Shown here piece after piece: positions 20,601 to 25,580 of a stretch of DNA of 26,013 nucleotides; the stretch's first letter is position 1; each line of letters begins with the position of its first letter. The translations under genes were made by a program, and so were the position numbers. Source of the DNA: a virus. The stretch spans positions 1 through 26,013 of the IMG/VR virus record IMGVR_UViG_3300042395_000435; one strand, given 5' to 3'. The notes under the pieces were generated by a model, which saw only the letters and a list, made by a program, of their open reading frames with translations, ran no database searches and was not told the DNA's origin.

Positions 20601-22419
20601 GCGTATCTCGGCCATGCTCACGCCTGCCCAAGACTTTATGAAGGGGTGGAAGTGGGCGGCCAAACAAAACGCATCCAACGCCCCAAGCGAACGCAAAAGC
20701 GAACTCATGGCCGGACTTAGCCATCTGCGCGTCATGTCCAAGCTCACCACACAAAACAAGTGGGAGTTTGGTGATGTGAAGGATGTGAACCGGCAACTGT
20801 TCAGCGGTCGCGCCATGCAGATGTTGGAGTCCACGCTGTCTGTCGCCCTCGGCACTGCTGACCGTGCCTTCTGGATGGCGGAATACAGGTCGCGCCTCTC
20901 ACAGATGGAAGCGGCGGCCAAGAAGAACGGCGAATGGACCGGCCAGCCCACGCCCGAAATGATTGAGGCAGCACAGGCGGATGCCATGTATGCCATTTAT
21001 CAGAACCCGAACTTCACCAGCAAACTCATCGCCGACCTTCGCCGCACGCTCAACCGCAACAAAGAGTTTGGCCTTGGCACGGCCATTGTTCCGTTCGCCC
21101 AAGTCCCCGGCTCCATCGTGGAGAAGGGGTTCGTTGACTGGTCGCCTCTCGGGTTTATCCGCAACATCTACAGCGGAACCAAGGGTATCCTTTACGCCAA
21201 CGGGATGGCGCAGACTGGAAGGTTCGACCGCGCAGAGTTTAACAAGGCATTCTCTCAAGCGACAGTCGGCACCGGCATGTGGATGACCGGACTTTATCTT
21301 TACAAGATGGGCGTGATTACGGCCAGCCGCGAGGAGGATGAGAAGCTAGAGCAAATGCGGCAAGCCTCGGGGCTTGGGGCATACCAGATCAACCTGACGC
21401 AGCTTCGCCGGCGCATGTTGACTGGCGACTGGACTAATCCATACCCCGCAATTTATGGCGACACACTCATGGACTACAACTGGGCGCAGCCTATGTCCAT
21501 CGTGTTGGCGGCTGGCGCCGAGTATGGGAAGCAGGAAGACGCAGCCCAGCGCGAAGCAACCAAAGGCGGGCGCCCCGGCGAGCGCGCGGGCTGGCTCGCC
21601 CTTAGTATGCTGGCTGGAGCCAAGTCTCTTAAAGAAGAACCGCTACTCCAAGGCTTTGCCTCCTTCAATCGTGAGTGGTCTAACAGCGGCGAGCCGATCT
21701 CGGCCATCTACGATACGGCGCTCGGCATGCCGTCGATGTTTGTCCCGCAGATCGTCAGACAGGTCTCACAATACAACGACAACATCGTGCGCGAATACCG
21801 CAACGCAACGGGACCAGCGCTAACGGCAGACATGAAGCGGATGTTTATGAACATCGGGTCACAGCTCCCCGGCGTGTCAACCAGCTTTCCCCCGCGCTAC
21901 GACATCCTCGGGCAAGCGGTCGAGCGCTACGGATACGGTGGCAACTCGTTCTTCAACGTCTTCATCAACCCCGCTCGCTTCACGAAATACAAGGGCGACC
22001 CCGCATTCCAAGAGCTGGAGCGCATCATGTCCGTCACCGGCGAGACGAAGATGCTGCCGACCAAGATCAAGAGCAATAAGGTGGCGATCAATGGGCAGCA
22101 GATCGAGCTAACCAACGAGCAGATGGCGGCCTACCGTTACTACCTCGGCAACATGACCATGGGGATCTATTACAATAGGCTGGCCCTACCGCAATACGCC
22201 TCGGTTCCCGACCAAACGAAGGTGGATCTCTTTGTCAAAGACGTGAAGGACGTGAACGCCGCCGTGAAGGCCGGACTGTTTGGCCATAGTGTTGGTAATC
22301 TCACGCCCGCACAGCGCTCGCTTTATGGTCAGTTCATCATGGGCATCGGCCAGCAGATGCCGACCGGCATGCAGCCGCAGTCGTTCCTACCTGACCCCGT
22401 CCCCGCGCCACAAAATTAG
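17614..22419 (+). CDS. Large internal virion protein, predicted DNA-ejection protein
   Basis: A 1601-residue protein, by far the largest here. The first 160 residues are low-complexity and acidic; a Pro/Ala/Gln-rich linker lies at about 495-545. Several Gly/Ala hydrophobic segments could enter a membrane: about 271-305 (MVLWTGAGALVGGPKGALIG), 365-400, and 956-995 (TGAAIGSIVPIIGTTAGAAI). The region near 892-937 (AVAYLSMLFAPKTWIRNIGG) resembles a conserved block in very large phage and polyvalent proteins. The position at the end of the late operon matches T7 gp16-like proteins that form a trans-envelope channel. No lytic transglycosylase or protease signature was found, so an enzymatic activity is not claimed. 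Confidence 0.8.
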   Translation: MAVSEADRFLGLSDQDAAAYEREQRAILNDRSQWDKSLPETQLDIAPEREDAPLPPIASNRPAATSVDPVAGNAAPSDLPPWTEEDEATSASAAEDFLNAQQQPLPGSDPVPSADDFLSESTLPPAGVGSGGSGGGGGGTSGSDPTFSPQQMSADSFLLAPDEGTDPEGAPSLNLIRGNNIASTWNAFQRGWASAGMAMEMDAEQPNPEAVIAYQQEIQKLPPSQAYSIAMDDSRPPMESWKAFSYNPVGVFGEMIGESMAGFARQMANKGVAPMVLWTGAGALVGGPKGALIGARAGYANAVGLASHSMEVSSGILDSFQRAGIDITDPQALTEGLQDPERMALAREFAEKGAVPVATFDVGSALIAGKLLGRQGTKMLGRLTAGAVETAVQSFMGGAGEASKQIAQDGQITSGRSVLAETAVDSAMGGIDIAVGTRLERARELPLGNAAVIPEEQLRAGDVNVELGGQTISIPARPMGRAPNMARATQQNIAANAAAGGPAPATAVPQPAPAAQPTQPQPAQGSVPPPPSPAPANTNPEQRPRQFEERASEMPNVPEQTQSLMGSVYDVQRFKDSIDAAKAWINDYGLDAARALMTEISVSDDTRAMTPVEIAIAVELAGRLGAMQDYNGQATVLKVVSRKGQTMGAAIAHLKIIGMMTPEGIVMYANRMIEDYINTLPPERQEALKKAQSVVDQIGATVAQAKTDIANSVLKEGQFGGERIGLRISRRVESVQQGEQVMVAIRDVLTGPSVKEAAKPQIAKILQEAGLSKGEAESIASSVANQFYKALDQVRAQLIAPRKPATGEALKIFNQLQADLKAGNLTDSQYMSKVASIFGVPAMTPELAAELNRYREQIQATTDEDVKTVLTAKMYERAMSIVPQDIWAQTRAVAYLSMLFAPKTWIRNIGGNTIQFIANIGRDAFINMVADPTLGLFDGGRRTTASGIGLMGAAGRTAAGATTGAAIGSIVPIIGTTAGAAIGAGAGLIYTASGGKRISAMLTPAQDFMKGWKWAAKQNASNAPSERKSELMAGLSHLRVMSKLTTQNKWEFGDVKDVNRQLFSGRAMQMLESTLSVALGTADRAFWMAEYRSRLSQMEAAAKKNGEWTGQPTPEMIEAAQADAMYAIYQNPNFTSKLIADLRRTLNRNKEFGLGTAIVPFAQVPGSIVEKGFVDWSPLGFIRNIYSGTKGILYANGMAQTGRFDRAEFNKAFSQATVGTGMWMTGLYLYKMGVITASREEDEKLEQMRQASGLGAYQINLTQLRRRMLTGDWTNPYPAIYGDTLMDYNWAQPMSIVLAAGAEYGKQEDAAQREATKGGRPGERAGWLALSMLAGAKSLKEEPLLQGFASFNREWSNSGEPISAIYDTALGMPSMFVPQIVRQVSQYNDNIVREYRNATGPALTADMKRMFMNIGSQLPGVSTSFPPRYDILGQAVERYGYGGNSFFNVFINPARFTKYKGDPAFQELERIMSVTGETKMLPTKIKSNKVAINGQQIELTNEQMAAYRYYLGNMTMGIYYNRLALPQYASVPDQTKVDLFVKDVKDVNAAVKAGLFGHSVGNLTPAQRSLYGQFIMGIGQQMPTGMQPQSFLPDPVPAPQN

Positions 22420-22446
22420 GGCCGCCCCGGTTTCCCAGAGCGGCCC
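22419..22446. terminator. Hairpin between convergent late genes and integrase operon
   Basis: GGGCCGC (22419-22425) pairs with GCGGCCC (22440-22446) around a 14-base loop; the stem starts in the last base of the late operon's final stop codon. No T-tract follows on either strand. Its place between convergent operons suggests a two-way transcription stop. The remaining 53 bases to the lipoprotein stop hold nothing recognisable. Confidence 0.5.
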
Positions 22447-22499
22447 AGCGCATCACTCGACGCGCTCGTCCTTGTGGTTAGGAGACACACTTGGACAAA

Positions 22500-22868
22500 T
22501 CAGTAGCCATAGTAGCCGTATGCCGGCGGCGTGTAAATGGGGGCCGCGTTGCCTCCAAAGGTTGAGACAACTGTTGTTCCTCCCACTTGTCCTGCCGTTG
22601 TAACTCCACTTCCAGACGGAGCAACAATGATCGGTTGTGGCGCCTGCTGCGGAACGGGCGCCGACCCCTGAAACACAACAGTCGAAGGGGCGATTCCAAG
22701 CATGTCGGTCCCCGGCTGGAAGCGGATCTTCGGTTGCTTGGCCTCCCACGCCCGATACTCGGCAAGCTCCTCGGGCGTCCACTTTTTAAGAAAGGCAGTC
22801 GGATCCGTTTGCGCGCATCCAGCGGCCATCACCATGGCGGCAGCGAGCGTTAGGGTTAGCAGTTTCAT
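22500..22868 (-). CDS. Predicted lipoprotein coupled to the integrase
   Basis: A 122-residue exported protein. The signal peptide (residues 1-17, MKLLTLTLAAAMVMAAG) is followed by C18 in a lipobox-like AAGC. The next residue is Ala, not Asp, so outer-membrane sorting is expected in a Gram-negative host. The mature part has a short charged segment (LKKWTPEELAEYRAWEAKQP) then a Gln/Pro/Gly/Val-rich tail ending in PPAYGYYGY. The start at 22868 overlaps the integrase stop (ATGA); a longer open frame upstream of it is a shadow of the integrase. Being tied to the integrase it may be expressed in the lysogen and alter the host surface, for example to exclude other phages; this is inference. Confidence 0.7.
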   Translation of the reverse strand: MKLLTLTLAAAMVMAAGCAQTDPTAFLKKWTPEELAEYRAWEAKQPKIRFQPGTDMLGIAPSTVVFQGSAPVPQQAPQPIIVAPSGSGVTTAGQVGGTTVVSTFGGNAAPIYTPPAYGYYGY

Positions 22869-24016
22869 ATTGTTGGTTCTTGTTGGAATTTTTCTGGCAC
22901 GACTACGGCACGTTGCCATGTGGCATACCAGCGGCTTGTTGTGGTCGGGGTGCTGTGCCCGAGAAGATATTGCACAAGGCTGATCTTGCCGGTGGCCTCC
23001 AGCCAATCGGACCCTGCTTGCTTGCGCAATTCGTAGGCCGCCCCCTTGCGGTCGGGGATTAGGGTGCGAAGCCAGAGGTTGAACACGCGCAGGATGTAGT
23101 TGTAGCGAAGGTTCGGCGTGGGCAGCGGGATCAAGTAGTCGTCGGCTTTGAGCAGGGCATCGGCCATCCATGGTGCGATGACAATATCCCGCTCGCGCGC
23201 CCCGCCGGTCTTTAGGGAGAAACCCTCATCGGGACGCTCGCGCACACACATGGTCTTACCCTGCGGGCGGTCTTCGACCCATCCCTTGCGGGCATAGCTG
23301 ACTTCCTTGGGCGTCATGCCGAGATACCGGCAGCAGATGAAGGCGCGGCGGCGGGTCTCATCGGCGCGGCTCTCCCGCTCCATGGTGGCGAGCGTGTCCT
23401 TGGGGATGTGCTGGAAGCTGTTGGGATTGTATTTCTGCTTGGCCTCCTTGGATGCCGTGAGGAAGCCAGAGATGTCGGGCAGCGGGAAGCCGACCCAATC
23501 TTTGGTGCGAGCGAAGACGGCTTTGGCGCCGGCCAGTGTGGTGCCCTTGGTGTAGATGGCGTTCTTGTCGGCGCGCTGGTAGTCCACGGCGAGTTGGGCG
23601 GTCAGTTCGGTGGATCGGACGGCCATCACCTTGGCCTTCTCCACGTCGGTCATGGCGCGGGCGCCGGCTGTCGTCCAGCCTTTGGCTCTAGCGATGACGC
23701 GCATGAGGGCATTGGTGTTCTTCTTGTGGGTGGTGCAGTCGGTGACGGTGGCGTAGTGGTCGATGATCTGGCCCATGGTCGGGGCGCTGTCGCGCATGTT
23801 GGCTGTCTCTTTGAGCTTGGCCATGCCCTGATCCCCGAGAATAGTGAGGAACGATATGGCCTTCGCCTTGGCAATTTTCGCATCGTTCGTCTTGAGGGAA
23901 ACCCGCTTGATCTTCTTGCCCTCCATAAATCGCAGCCACCATCGGGACTCTCGCCAAAAGCAAGTGCCACGGATGCCAAACTTGGGGATCTCAATGCGGA
24001 AGGATTCAGTGTTCAT
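22865..24016 (-). CDS. int: Tyrosine-recombinase integrase with atypical active-site residues
   Basis: A 383-residue site-specific recombinase that would integrate and excise the phage. The N-terminal arm-type DNA-binding part (RWWLRFMEGKKIKRVSLKTN, residues 25-44) is followed by a core-binding region and the catalytic domain (about 205-375). Seen residues are K269 (SLKTGGARERD), R331 in YELR, H354 in LLGHS and the nucleophile Y364 in SRWY, with normal spacing (23 and 10). Two positions differ from the consensus: the His of HxxR is Y328, and the first Arg (usually G-L-R in the box before) is T235 in LGMTPKEV. GAGG lies 6 bases before the ATG. The stop overlaps the lipoprotein start. Confidence 0.92.
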   Translation of the reverse strand: MNTESFRIEIPKFGIRGTCFWRESRWWLRFMEGKKIKRVSLKTNDAKIAKAKAISFLTILGDQGMAKLKETANMRDSAPTMGQIIDHYATVTDCTTHKKNTNALMRVIARAKGWTTAGARAMTDVEKAKVMAVRSTELTAQLAVDYQRADKNAIYTKGTTLAGAKAVFARTKDWVGFPLPDISGFLTASKEAKQKYNPNSFQHIPKDTLATMERESRADETRRRAFICCRYLGMTPKEVSYARKGWVEDRPQGKTMCVRERPDEGFSLKTGGARERDIVIAPWMADALLKADDYLIPLPTPNLRYNYILRVFNLWLRTLIPDRKGAAYELRKQAGSDWLEATGKISLVQYLLGHSTPTTTSRWYATWQRAVVVPEKFQQEPTI

Positions 24017-24024
24017 AACGCCTC

Positions 24025-24053
24025 ACTATCGGACTGTGCTCAAAACGTGTCAA
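24025..24053 (-). promoter_or_regulatory. Candidate integrase promoter
   Basis: On the minus strand a perfect -35 TTGACA (24053-24048), a 17-base spacer and -10 GATAGT (24030-24025, 4 of 6 matches). Transcription would begin about 2-3 bases before the integrase ATG (24016), giving an almost leaderless message that would lack the GAGG site; readthrough from the early genes would include it. The promoter lies within an inverted repeat, so it may be repressed or autoregulated. Confidence 0.45.
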
Positions 24054-24070: not shown

Positions 24071-24132
24071 GTTGGTTTATGCTGGTTCAAAGTGGCACAT
24101 AAAAGTTCAATTTACAGAGAAAGTTTCATTTC

Positions 24133-24175
24133 GGGGGTGTAGCTCAACGGTTAGAGCAGGCGGCTCATAATCGCT
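24133..24175 (+). other. 5' half of a tRNA gene with CAU anticodon: likely phage attachment site
   Basis: The sequence fits a tRNA from its 5' end: acceptor strand GGGGGTG (24133-24139), D-stem GCTC/GAGC (24142-24145, 24154-24157), anticodon stem GGCGG/TCGCT (24159-24163, 24171-24175) and loop CTCATAA with anticodon CAT (24166-24168; Met or lysidine-type Ile). No T-arm and no 3' acceptor strand CACCCCC follow, so the tRNA is incomplete. Lying 117 bases upstream of the integrase start, it is most simply the phage half of an att site in a host tRNA. GCTCAACGG occurs at 24142-24150 and again at 24173-24181, so the core may contain a direct repeat. Confidence 0.65.
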
Positions 24176-24200
24176 CAACGGATTATTCGGGCCTTTTGTT

Positions 24201-24281
24201 TTACTCTGTAAATGTGCGGTTGTGTGCTGTTGTCACACGGATGGTGTCAAGGTGTGTGCTTTCGGTGGATCGGGCGGCCAT
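24201..24281 (-). CDS. Very short possible reading frame next to the att site
   Basis: A 26-residue frame starting MAARSTESTH whose ATG overlaps the TGA of the preceding small gene (TGATG). Its first 25 bases match, with one mismatch, a stretch of the integrase gene that encodes MAVRSTE. It has no ribosome binding site of its own and no recognisable protein features. It may be a real coupled micro-peptide, or only the fragment left of a longer gene beside the attachment site. Confidence 0.25.
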   Translation of the reverse strand: MAARSTESTHLDTIRVTTAHNRTFTE

Positions 24282-24433
24282 CACCGGGCGCCGGTGGCGT
24301 TCCTGCACCTCATGCGCATCTTGGTCGTGGGGTGCGAGATCGGGCGCCTCTGCTTGCGCTGCTTGGCTTTGGCTATCGCCCCGTCCATCAGTCGCACTAG
24401 GTCTTGCTTGGTTTCCATGGTCTCAGCGGCCAT
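24281..24433 (-). CDS. Small basic protein of the early-gene array
   Basis: A 50-residue, strongly basic protein (MAAETMETKQDLVRLMDGAI, then AKAKQRKQRRPISH and KMRMRCRN) that could bind nucleic acid. Its ATG lies in a GTGATGGCCGC copy and its stop lies in the next copy, where TGA overlaps the following ATG. A second in-frame ATG at residue 6 (in a GACCATG context like that of the 111-residue gene) could be the true start. Codon pattern and lack of stops support it, but it is short and without a known family. Confidence 0.5.
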   Translation of the reverse strand: MAAETMETKQDLVRLMDGAIAKAKQRKQRRPISHPTTKMRMRCRNATGAR

Positions 24434-24446
24434 CACTTGCCGGCTT

Positions 24447-24490: not shown

Positions 24491-24826
24491 TTACAGCTTT
24501 TCTTCTTGGACCGTTATCTCCACGTTGTAGCTATAACGGAATCTGCGAATGCCTTTGACCTCATAGATGTAAAACTCCCAAGGTGTCGGCGCATCTTCTC
24601 CACTAATAACGTCATCGCTGTATATCTCTGCCTTTTCCCGGCAGTAATCCTCTGCCGCTTCCAGCGTGGCGAATGACTCGTCGCACTCCCATTCGCGGCC
24701 CTCGTCGCAACTGTAATAGACTTGGAACTCGATTGTCCCAACGTCTGTGTTGTCGCACTTTGCTTTAGGCGGGCGATTGGTGGTGCGCTTCTTGGTTGGC
24801 TTCGTTTTCATGGTCGTGGCGGCCAT
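24491..24826 (-). CDS. Hypothetical early phage protein, Lys-rich start and acidic body
   Basis: A 111-residue protein. The first 23 residues are basic (MKTKPTKKRTTNRPPKAK follows a MAATT leader); the rest is acidic and aromatic (EFQVYYSCDEGREWECDESF, ATLEAAEDYCREKAEIYSDD, PWEFYIYEVKGIRRFRYSYN), suggesting a small alpha/beta fold. The ATG at 24826 overlaps the stop of the upstream gene (TGATG) inside a GTGATGGCCGC copy; the internal ATG at 24811 is an alternative start. No family is recognised. Small acidic phage proteins of this sort often bind or block host proteins, but nothing here proves it. Confidence 0.7.
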   Translation of the reverse strand: MAATTMKTKPTKKRTTNRPPKAKCDNTDVGTIEFQVYYSCDEGREWECDESFATLEAAEDYCREKAEIYSDDVISGEDAPTPWEFYIYEVKGIRRFRYSYNVEITVQEEKL

Positions 24827-25239
24827 CACTTGATGAACACATGCGCCGGCCGTGGGGCCTGACGCATGAACTCCCACAATGCCTCCATGCTGTAGGGCAT
24901 ATCGGCGTCCCATATATCCAGCGTGCCGTCTCCCGGCCACTGGCCGAAGTCGTAGGTCACTCCATGCTTCGTCACTTTGAAGAAGTATGAGCACTTACTG
25001 TCTGTCGGGTCTTTGACTTCGACCGTGAAGTATGGTTCTTCCTTCGGGTCGTAGTCTTTGGCCTTTGGTTGTGGTCCGGCGGACATTCCGCAGATCACGT
25101 CGTCAAACGGTAGTAGGCTGGCCCGCTTCTCAATGAGCTGCGGACAAAATTGCCTAACGTGGTCGAGGCGGTCAAAATCTTTGACTACCTCCGGTTTCGG
25201 TTGCTGTTTCTTGGCTTTTGATTTCGCTGTCTTTTTCAT
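24826..25239 (-). CDS. Hypothetical early phage protein
   Basis: A 137-residue protein with a very basic first 20 residues (MKKTAKSKAKKQQPKPEVVK) and an aromatic, acidic remainder (YFTVEVKDPTDSKCSYFFKV; FGQWPGDGTLDIWDADMPYS). ATG 25239 is chosen because AAAGGAG lies 5 bases upstream; an ATG at 25269, in a GTGATGGCCGC copy, would add MAATTKQRRH and would translate the ribosome-binding cassette itself. Its stop overlaps the next gene (TGATG). No family recognised; the order and shape are those of phage early genes. Confidence 0.7.
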   Translation of the reverse strand: MKKTAKSKAKKQQPKPEVVKDFDRLDHVRQFCPQLIEKRASLLPFDDVICGMSAGPQPKAKDYDPKEEPYFTVEVKDPTDSKCSYFFKVTKHGVTYDFGQWPGDGTLDIWDADMPYSMEALWEFMRQAPRPAHVFIK

Positions 25240-25493
25240 GTGTCTCCTTTGTTTGGTTGTGGCGGCCATCACTGGACCGGCTCAAAGTCCGCGTAGTCAT
25301 CAAGAAACGCGGCCACGTTAGCCAAGGTTGGTTTGCGTTGTTCCTCGGGCAGCTCATGCCAAGAGTCGTGCCGTTCGCACTCCTCAAGCCATGCGCCGAA
25401 TGATTTTGTTACGCGCCCACCGGGGAAGCGCATGCGCGCGCTGAAATGATCCAGCGTGTGCGGTGTATCGTTTTTCATGTGTCTCCTTTGTTT
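25232..25493 (-). repeat. Repeated 23-base ribosome-binding/start cassette
   Basis: Bases 25232-25254 and 25471-25493 are identical over 23 bases on the minus strand; they contain AAACAAAGGAG, the spacer ACAC, the ATG and the first AAAAA of the gene. A shorter version, AAAGGAGACACACATG, precedes the 91-residue gene at about 25854-25869. Each cassette directs one small gene. Confidence 0.8.
25269..25478 (-). CDS. Small early phage protein
   Basis: A 69-residue protein starting MKNDTPHTLDHFSARMRFPG, with a helical acidic second half (SFGAWLEECERHDSWHELPE, then TLANVAAFLDDYADFEPVQ). AAAGGAG is placed 5 bases before ATG 25478, identical to the site of the next gene. The stop TGA at 25271-25269 overlaps the ATG of the MAATT leader of the following gene. 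Unknown family; function not assigned. Confidence 0.7.
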   Translation of the reverse strand: MKNDTPHTLDHFSARMRFPGGRVTKSFGAWLEECERHDSWHELPEEQRKPTLANVAAFLDDYADFEPVQ

Positions 25494-25580
25494 CAATAGA
25501 TGGTGCGGCCATCACCGGGTCAGCATGTTTGCCGTCCGTTCCGGCCTCTGCCCCCATTGGACAAAGGCCGGTGTCGGGCG
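25479..25580 (-). other. Gap holding a junction motif and possible micro-ORFs
   Basis: About 100 bases between two small genes. It holds one GTGATGGCCGC copy (25505-25515) and the 23-base ribosome-binding cassette, but no convincing full gene. A frame starting MAAPSIETKETHEK runs out of frame into the 69-residue gene and is probably a shadow, though at the other junctions such frames are the genuine start region. It may be where a gene was lost. Confidence 0.5.

Follow-up and report, generated by a model that had tools for sequence, protein, structure and literature searches.

The virus record IMGVR_UViG_3300042395_000435 (hereafter the window, all 26,013 bases of which were analysed) carries, upstream of an integrase gene, the 5' half of a transfer RNA (tRNA) with a CAU anticodon. 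We interpret this region, with a probability of roughly 0.88, as the phage attachment site (attP) of a temperate phage of Chthoniobacterales, an order of Verrucomicrobiota, whose integrase recombines the phage-borne 5' half with a host tRNA gene and thereby rebuilds the tRNA behind phage DNA. Besides the integrase, the record encodes an amidase, an SU10-type major capsid protein, and a terminase. A gap of 116 bp separates the start of the integrase gene from the tRNA half, and the two are divergent in orientation. The attachment (att) core and the integrase gene are:

24133–24175, plus strand: 5' half (nucleotides 1–43) of a CAU tRNA, the phage part of the att core, defined by the match to host locus L021, by a 41-nucleotide core found in eight genomes, and by E. 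coli tRNA-Ile as its nearest relative there
22865–24016, minus strand: tyrosine integrase, matching PHROG integrase families with E-values of 6.7e-16 and 4.5e-9

The tRNA half is identical to nucleotides 1–43 of the CAU tRNA of L021 (43/43, 100%, E 2.6e-20). It covers the acceptor strand, the D arm, and the whole of the anticodon arm, and identity goes no further than the anticodon stem. The window holds a host tRNA sequence that runs from nucleotide 1 to about the anticodon arm and adjoins an integrase. The 3' half of the L021 tRNA finds only short chance words in the window (best 11 nucleotides, E 0.11), and the 3' half of tRNA-Arg, the target of related phages described below, likewise has no match there beyond chance words. 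ARAGORN detected no complete tRNA in the window, and an Rfam search of it returned no tRNA even at E ≤ 1. An earlier note, made from the letters of this DNA, had placed an attachment site here that carries the 5' rather than the 3' half of a CAU tRNA. Its sequence and its coordinates from 24133 onward are correct, the exact 43-nucleotide match and the unmatched 3' half bear out its choice of half, and the complete phage tRNA that it named as contrary evidence was not found in the window. That the region is an attachment site is upheld by host genes containing the block and by an integrated relative. In the conventional arrangement, which accounts for 3760 of 3919 genomic islands (PMC4383910), the element carries the 3' half and the tRNA is restored behind its own promoter. 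We give this explanation almost no credence for the window: the shared block comprises nucleotides 1–43 only, the 3' half is without a match, and the conventional arrangement is refuted for this block.

The earlier note had suggested searching host tRNAs with the 43-base block, and such a search with the 41-nucleotide core (one ambiguous base) found exact matches in eight genomes of the genome collection, titled Chthoniobacterales, Chthoniobacter flavus, uncultured Verrucomicrobia, or uncultured Verrucomicrobium. ARAGORN labels the host gene tRNA-Met(CAU) in 8/8 genomes. The best E. coli match of the host tRNA is annotated tRNA-Ile in all five rows shown, and from this similarity the host gene probably encodes a lysidine-type tRNA-Ile2 rather than tRNA-Met. 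An ATG follows the tRNA after 17, 18, or 27 nucleotides in the eight genomes measured. In L021 the product encoded behind the tRNA is DUF520, which we take to be the YajQ family. A single alignment runs through the tRNA and yajQ in 11 of 213 genomes of the order, with the CAU tRNA matched once in each; L025, one of the eight genomes with the core, has no yajQ behind the tRNA.

The same arrangement is the rule among related phages. Scans of viral contigs for the integrase yielded 13, 18, and 10 loci, corresponding to 19 distinct contigs, and contig L087 was added through the tRNA-half pattern. Including the window, 18 contigs reach upstream of the integrase, while the sequences of L004, L014, and L015 stop short of the site; near copies exist among the 18. 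All 18 carry a tRNA 5' half upstream of the integrase in constant orientation, nine of them a CAU half (the window, L003, L005, L006, L013, L046, L047, L048, and L087) and nine a tRNA-Arg(UCU) half (L007–L012 and L055–L057). Identity to the native tRNA extends from nucleotide 1 to nucleotides 38–43, stopping where the anticodon loop ends or inside the 3' strand of its stem. Mean column identity over nucleotides 1–38 is 0.99 in seven of the nine CAU contigs, compared with 0.75 in the preceding 20 bases, and the corresponding values for seven of the nine Arg contigs are 0.98 and 0.67. Recombination alone would hardly need conservation to exactly nucleotide 1, whereas a functional tRNA would require it. 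Three combinations of acceptor and anticodon-stem sequence (GCTCCCG/CGGA, GCGCCCG/CGGA, and GCTCCCG/TAGA) each occur in both phages and hosts, the TAGA form in phage L011 and host G019, and in each host the 3' half can base-pair with the form of that host. In a tree of the relatives, which has many open forks and includes three very distant host rows, a single change between the two tRNA targets suffices, so that repeated switching between them is not forced.

One relative was captured in the integrated state. Contig L007 (IMGVR_UViG_2737471655_000001) contains a complete tRNA-Arg(TCT) that is identical at 73/73 positions to the native gene of G017. On its 3' side lies a KefC-like antiporter gene that matches G019 (85% over 1391 bases) and occupies the same place there, and on its 5' side lie the phage arm and integrase. 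The empty site in G019 consists of an S41-type protease gene, the tRNA-Arg gene, and a KefC-like gene; the names of the protease and the antiporter are our assumption from the look of the sequences. L007 is an integrated phage: its complete tRNA has a host 3' half followed by host genes, and a phage integrase lies at the other end. The host supplies the 3' side of the junction, which speaks against the conventional arrangement here as well. In the Arg lineage, then, the rebuilt tRNA stands behind phage DNA, and the CAU-type phage of the window would be expected to produce the same configuration. L007 is the only contig in which a complete tRNA with element DNA upstream was found. Apart from L007 itself, patterns for full tRNAs detected in the viral contigs just L078, L079, and L081, phages that have complete tRNA genes of their own. 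One of these, the 210-kb phage contig L078 (IMGVR_UViG_3300042350_004191), has a cluster of Ile, CAU, Arg-TCT, and Leu tRNAs at 1271–1625, which contains both tRNA types targeted by the group studied here.

The tRNA half is flanked at a fixed distance on both sides by a conserved dyad element, TTTACAGAG..., and the anatomy of the site is as follows:

24111–24123, no strand assigned: near dyad element TTTACAGAGAAAG, an inverted repeat 22 nucleotides before tRNA nucleotide 1, at the same offset in 16/18 contigs
24200–24212, no strand assigned: far dyad element TTTACTCTGTAAA, an inverted repeat at tRNA position +68, found at +68 or +69 in 13/17 contigs with a free attP
24164–24170, plus strand: anticodon loop CTCATAA with anticodon CAT at 24166–24168, the putative 7-bp strand-exchange region, by analogy with anticodon-loop att sites (PMC8371274)
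24142–24150, plus strand: first copy of the 9-nucleotide direct repeat GCTCAACGG, part of the D arm
24173–24181, plus strand: second copy of GCTCAACGG, absent from 6/9 contigs with the same target

The near dyad is weak and at −23 in L056 and L057, and the far dyad is flipped and at +57, 11 bp nearer or about one helical turn, in L046, L047, L048, and L087. L007 has no good far dyad (6/13 mismatches), as expected of an integrated end. The dyads are probably binding sites for the integrase or an accessory protein. The earlier note was right that GCTCAACGG occurs at 24142 and 24173. Its suggestion that this repeat might define the crossover does not survive comparison of the nine CAU contigs, because the repeat is present only in the window, L003, and L005 and missing from the other six, and we rejected it as a crossover marker. 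By analogy with other anticodon-loop sites, the crossover probably lies in the anticodon loop, with strand exchange over the 7 bp at 24164–24170. Alternatively, the tRNA half might be no att core but a relic, or a tRNA fragment that is transcribed and serves some other purpose, such as that of a decoy. Such roles are imaginable but nothing was found in their favour, and since in 17 free contigs the half adjoins the integrase and has a dyad on either side, and in L007 the junction is at the homologous site, we consider them highly improbable.

In the proposed mechanism, the integrase would join the phage 5' half to the host tRNA gene that matches it, with the anticodon loop as the probable place of exchange. 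Of the two resulting junctions, one would consist of the phage flank, the phage 5' half, and the host 3' half, forming a whole tRNA with phage DNA upstream, and the other would join the native promoter to the displaced 5' half. The rebuilt tRNA, together with yajQ 17–27 nucleotides behind it, would be transcribed from the phage side, either starting in the 116 bp that separate integrase and tRNA or reading through the integrase gene in antisense. The tRNA is single-copy where tested, so some phage-side transcription is expected in a lysogen.

Several observations weigh against this interpretation. No integrated CAU-type phage was found: a close integrase occurred in 0/213 genomes of the order (three have relatives at 28–31% identity) and in 0/8 of the genomes with exact matches, and an alignment-based scan of the genome contigs for the integrase gave none. 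For the junctions that the earlier note had proposed to look for, the outcome is therefore one junction in the Arg-type L007 and none for a CAU-type phage. The L007 record itself covers one junction and contains a single match to the tRNA half, and similarity to E. coli is the whole basis for naming the CAU target tRNA-Ile2. In addition, no sigma-70-like promoter stood above shuffled sequences in the phage arm of any of the 18 contigs: between 81 and 298 of 300 shuffles scored at least as well as the best match. Of five native tRNA-Arg genes, four have a match that no more than 14 of 300 shuffles equal; among the eight native CAU genes the lowest count is 19/300 (L025) and the other seven are at 160/300 or above. 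Because the scan picks out native Arg promoters while missing most of the native CAU ones, it gives weak evidence on whether the phage arm has a promoter. The earlier note's statement that integration would tie a host tRNA to a phage promoter is conjectural, no arm having a match above shuffles; phage DNA does lie upstream of the tRNA in L007. The near recombination element, at −22 to −10, lies where native −10 boxes lie. It is conceivable, if doubtful, that a phage-controlled promoter overlapping this element captures the tRNA-Ile2(CAU)–yajQ unit, so that the integrase or an excision factor could switch the supply of both tRNA and YajQ. This idea takes the captured CAU tRNA to be single-copy and presumably essential; if it were true, decay of the prophage arm would harm the host and the arm would be kept under selection.

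Rare as it is, the 5'-half tRNA attP is already known from a few viruses and genomic islands. Among the islands in Islander, 159/3919 have a 5' fragment of the tRNA gene (PMC4383910), the same configuration as the attP of the window; these islands were found computationally in sequenced genomes of all kinds, and the likeness is at the level of configuration rather than of individual members (PMC4383910). The T7-like cyanophages P-SSP7, S-TIP37, and their relatives resemble the window in having a phage integrase and a 39-bp attP corresponding to the first half of a tRNA gene of the host, in their case tRNA-Leu, and their integration was demonstrated by polymerase chain reaction (PMC8776855). 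Their attP is downstream of the integrase, whereas that of the window is upstream and divergent, and they use other tRNAs and marine cyanobacterial hosts whereas the window phage has Verrucomicrobial hosts (PMC8776855). In the Thermococcus plasmid pTN3, as expected for the window phage, the rebuilt tRNA is parted from its own promoter (PMC5495485; PMC8371274). However, pTN3 is an archaeal plasmid whose integration splits its integrase gene (PMC5495485; PMC8371274), unlike the window, where the att core (24133–24175) lies outside the integrase gene (22865–24016) and a suicidal integrase of the pTN3 kind is not indicated. For pTN3, expression of the rebuilt tRNA is attributed to the integrase promoter, while in the window integrase and tRNA are divergent (PMC5495485; PMC8371274).

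The tRNA-dependent lysogeny of mycobacteriophages is similar in that integration can cost the cell a tRNA unless the phage provides one, and it involves the same class of target and a phage tyrosine integrase at a tRNA gene (PMC10865867). There, the host tRNA is broken and a complete phage tRNA complements it, whereas in the window group the tRNA itself is rebuilt (PMC10865867). This scheme is very unlikely to apply here: the window record, partial like those of the relatives, lacks a complete phage tRNA of the same isotype, no complete tRNA occurs in the scanned loci of the relatives except the L007 hybrid, the shared core is 38–43 nucleotides (43 in the window) rather than about 10 bp, and L007 has a complete hybrid tRNA. 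A need of the phage for rare-codon tRNAs found no clear support either. In crude longest-open-reading-frame sets, the share of AUA among Ile codons is 3.6% for the window, while two host samples have 4.2% and 4.6% and 11 other phage stretches 5.3–11.1%, and AGR codons make up 9% of Arg codons in the window, about 6% in both hosts, and about 20% at the phage maximum. The phages have a lower guanine-cytosine content, and the window is not enriched in AUA.

Literature searches returned no combination of yajQ with a prophage attB (bacterial attachment site) or with a promoter-captured tRNA. Three features appear to be new in the literature searched: the hosts are Verrucomicrobia, an entire integrase group uses 5' halves only, from two tRNAs, and yajQ follows the target gene. 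The group provides a set of bacterial phages, with integrases for two tRNAs, in which an uncommon arrangement is the rule (18/18 contigs), together with host genes and one integrated example. It opens to experiment the question of how, in a lysogen, prophage DNA provides for expression of a single-copy tRNA and perhaps of the gene that follows, and its host-matched stem variants offer a sequence-based way of pairing uncultured phages with hosts.

The integrase has no Pfam match at E ≤ 0.001, no sequence match in the PDB, and no tblastn match at 1e-5 among 50,697 phage records. An AlphaFold model built from an alignment of 12 near relatives is poor (mean predicted local distance difference test score, pLDDT, of 45.4), and the relation to tyrosine integrases is supported by sequence (PHROG E 6.7e-16). 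The protein has a conserved stretch LGMTPKE (LGM or MGM), which presumably stands where many family members have an arginine. Two further features were noted near the gene:

24025–24053, minus strand: sigma-70-like promoter TTGACA-17-GATAGT before the integrase, with 10/12 consensus bases; one was found, compared with 0.4 ± 0.5 in shuffles
24273–24284, 24425–24436, 24818–24829, 25261–25272, and 25504–25515, minus strand, and also at 22821 and 23618: copies of the gene-start module GTGATGGCCGCC

The module, a stop codon overlapping ATG-GCC-GCC, has seven matches with at most one mismatch where 0.23 are expected, and relatives have it too, at the far border of their att regions. Finally, a strong hairpin on the minus strand at 22414–22490, between a gene for 1601 amino acids and the genes after it, is overlapped by sub-threshold Rfam matches to two small RNAs, and is more likely a terminator-like structure than a small RNA.
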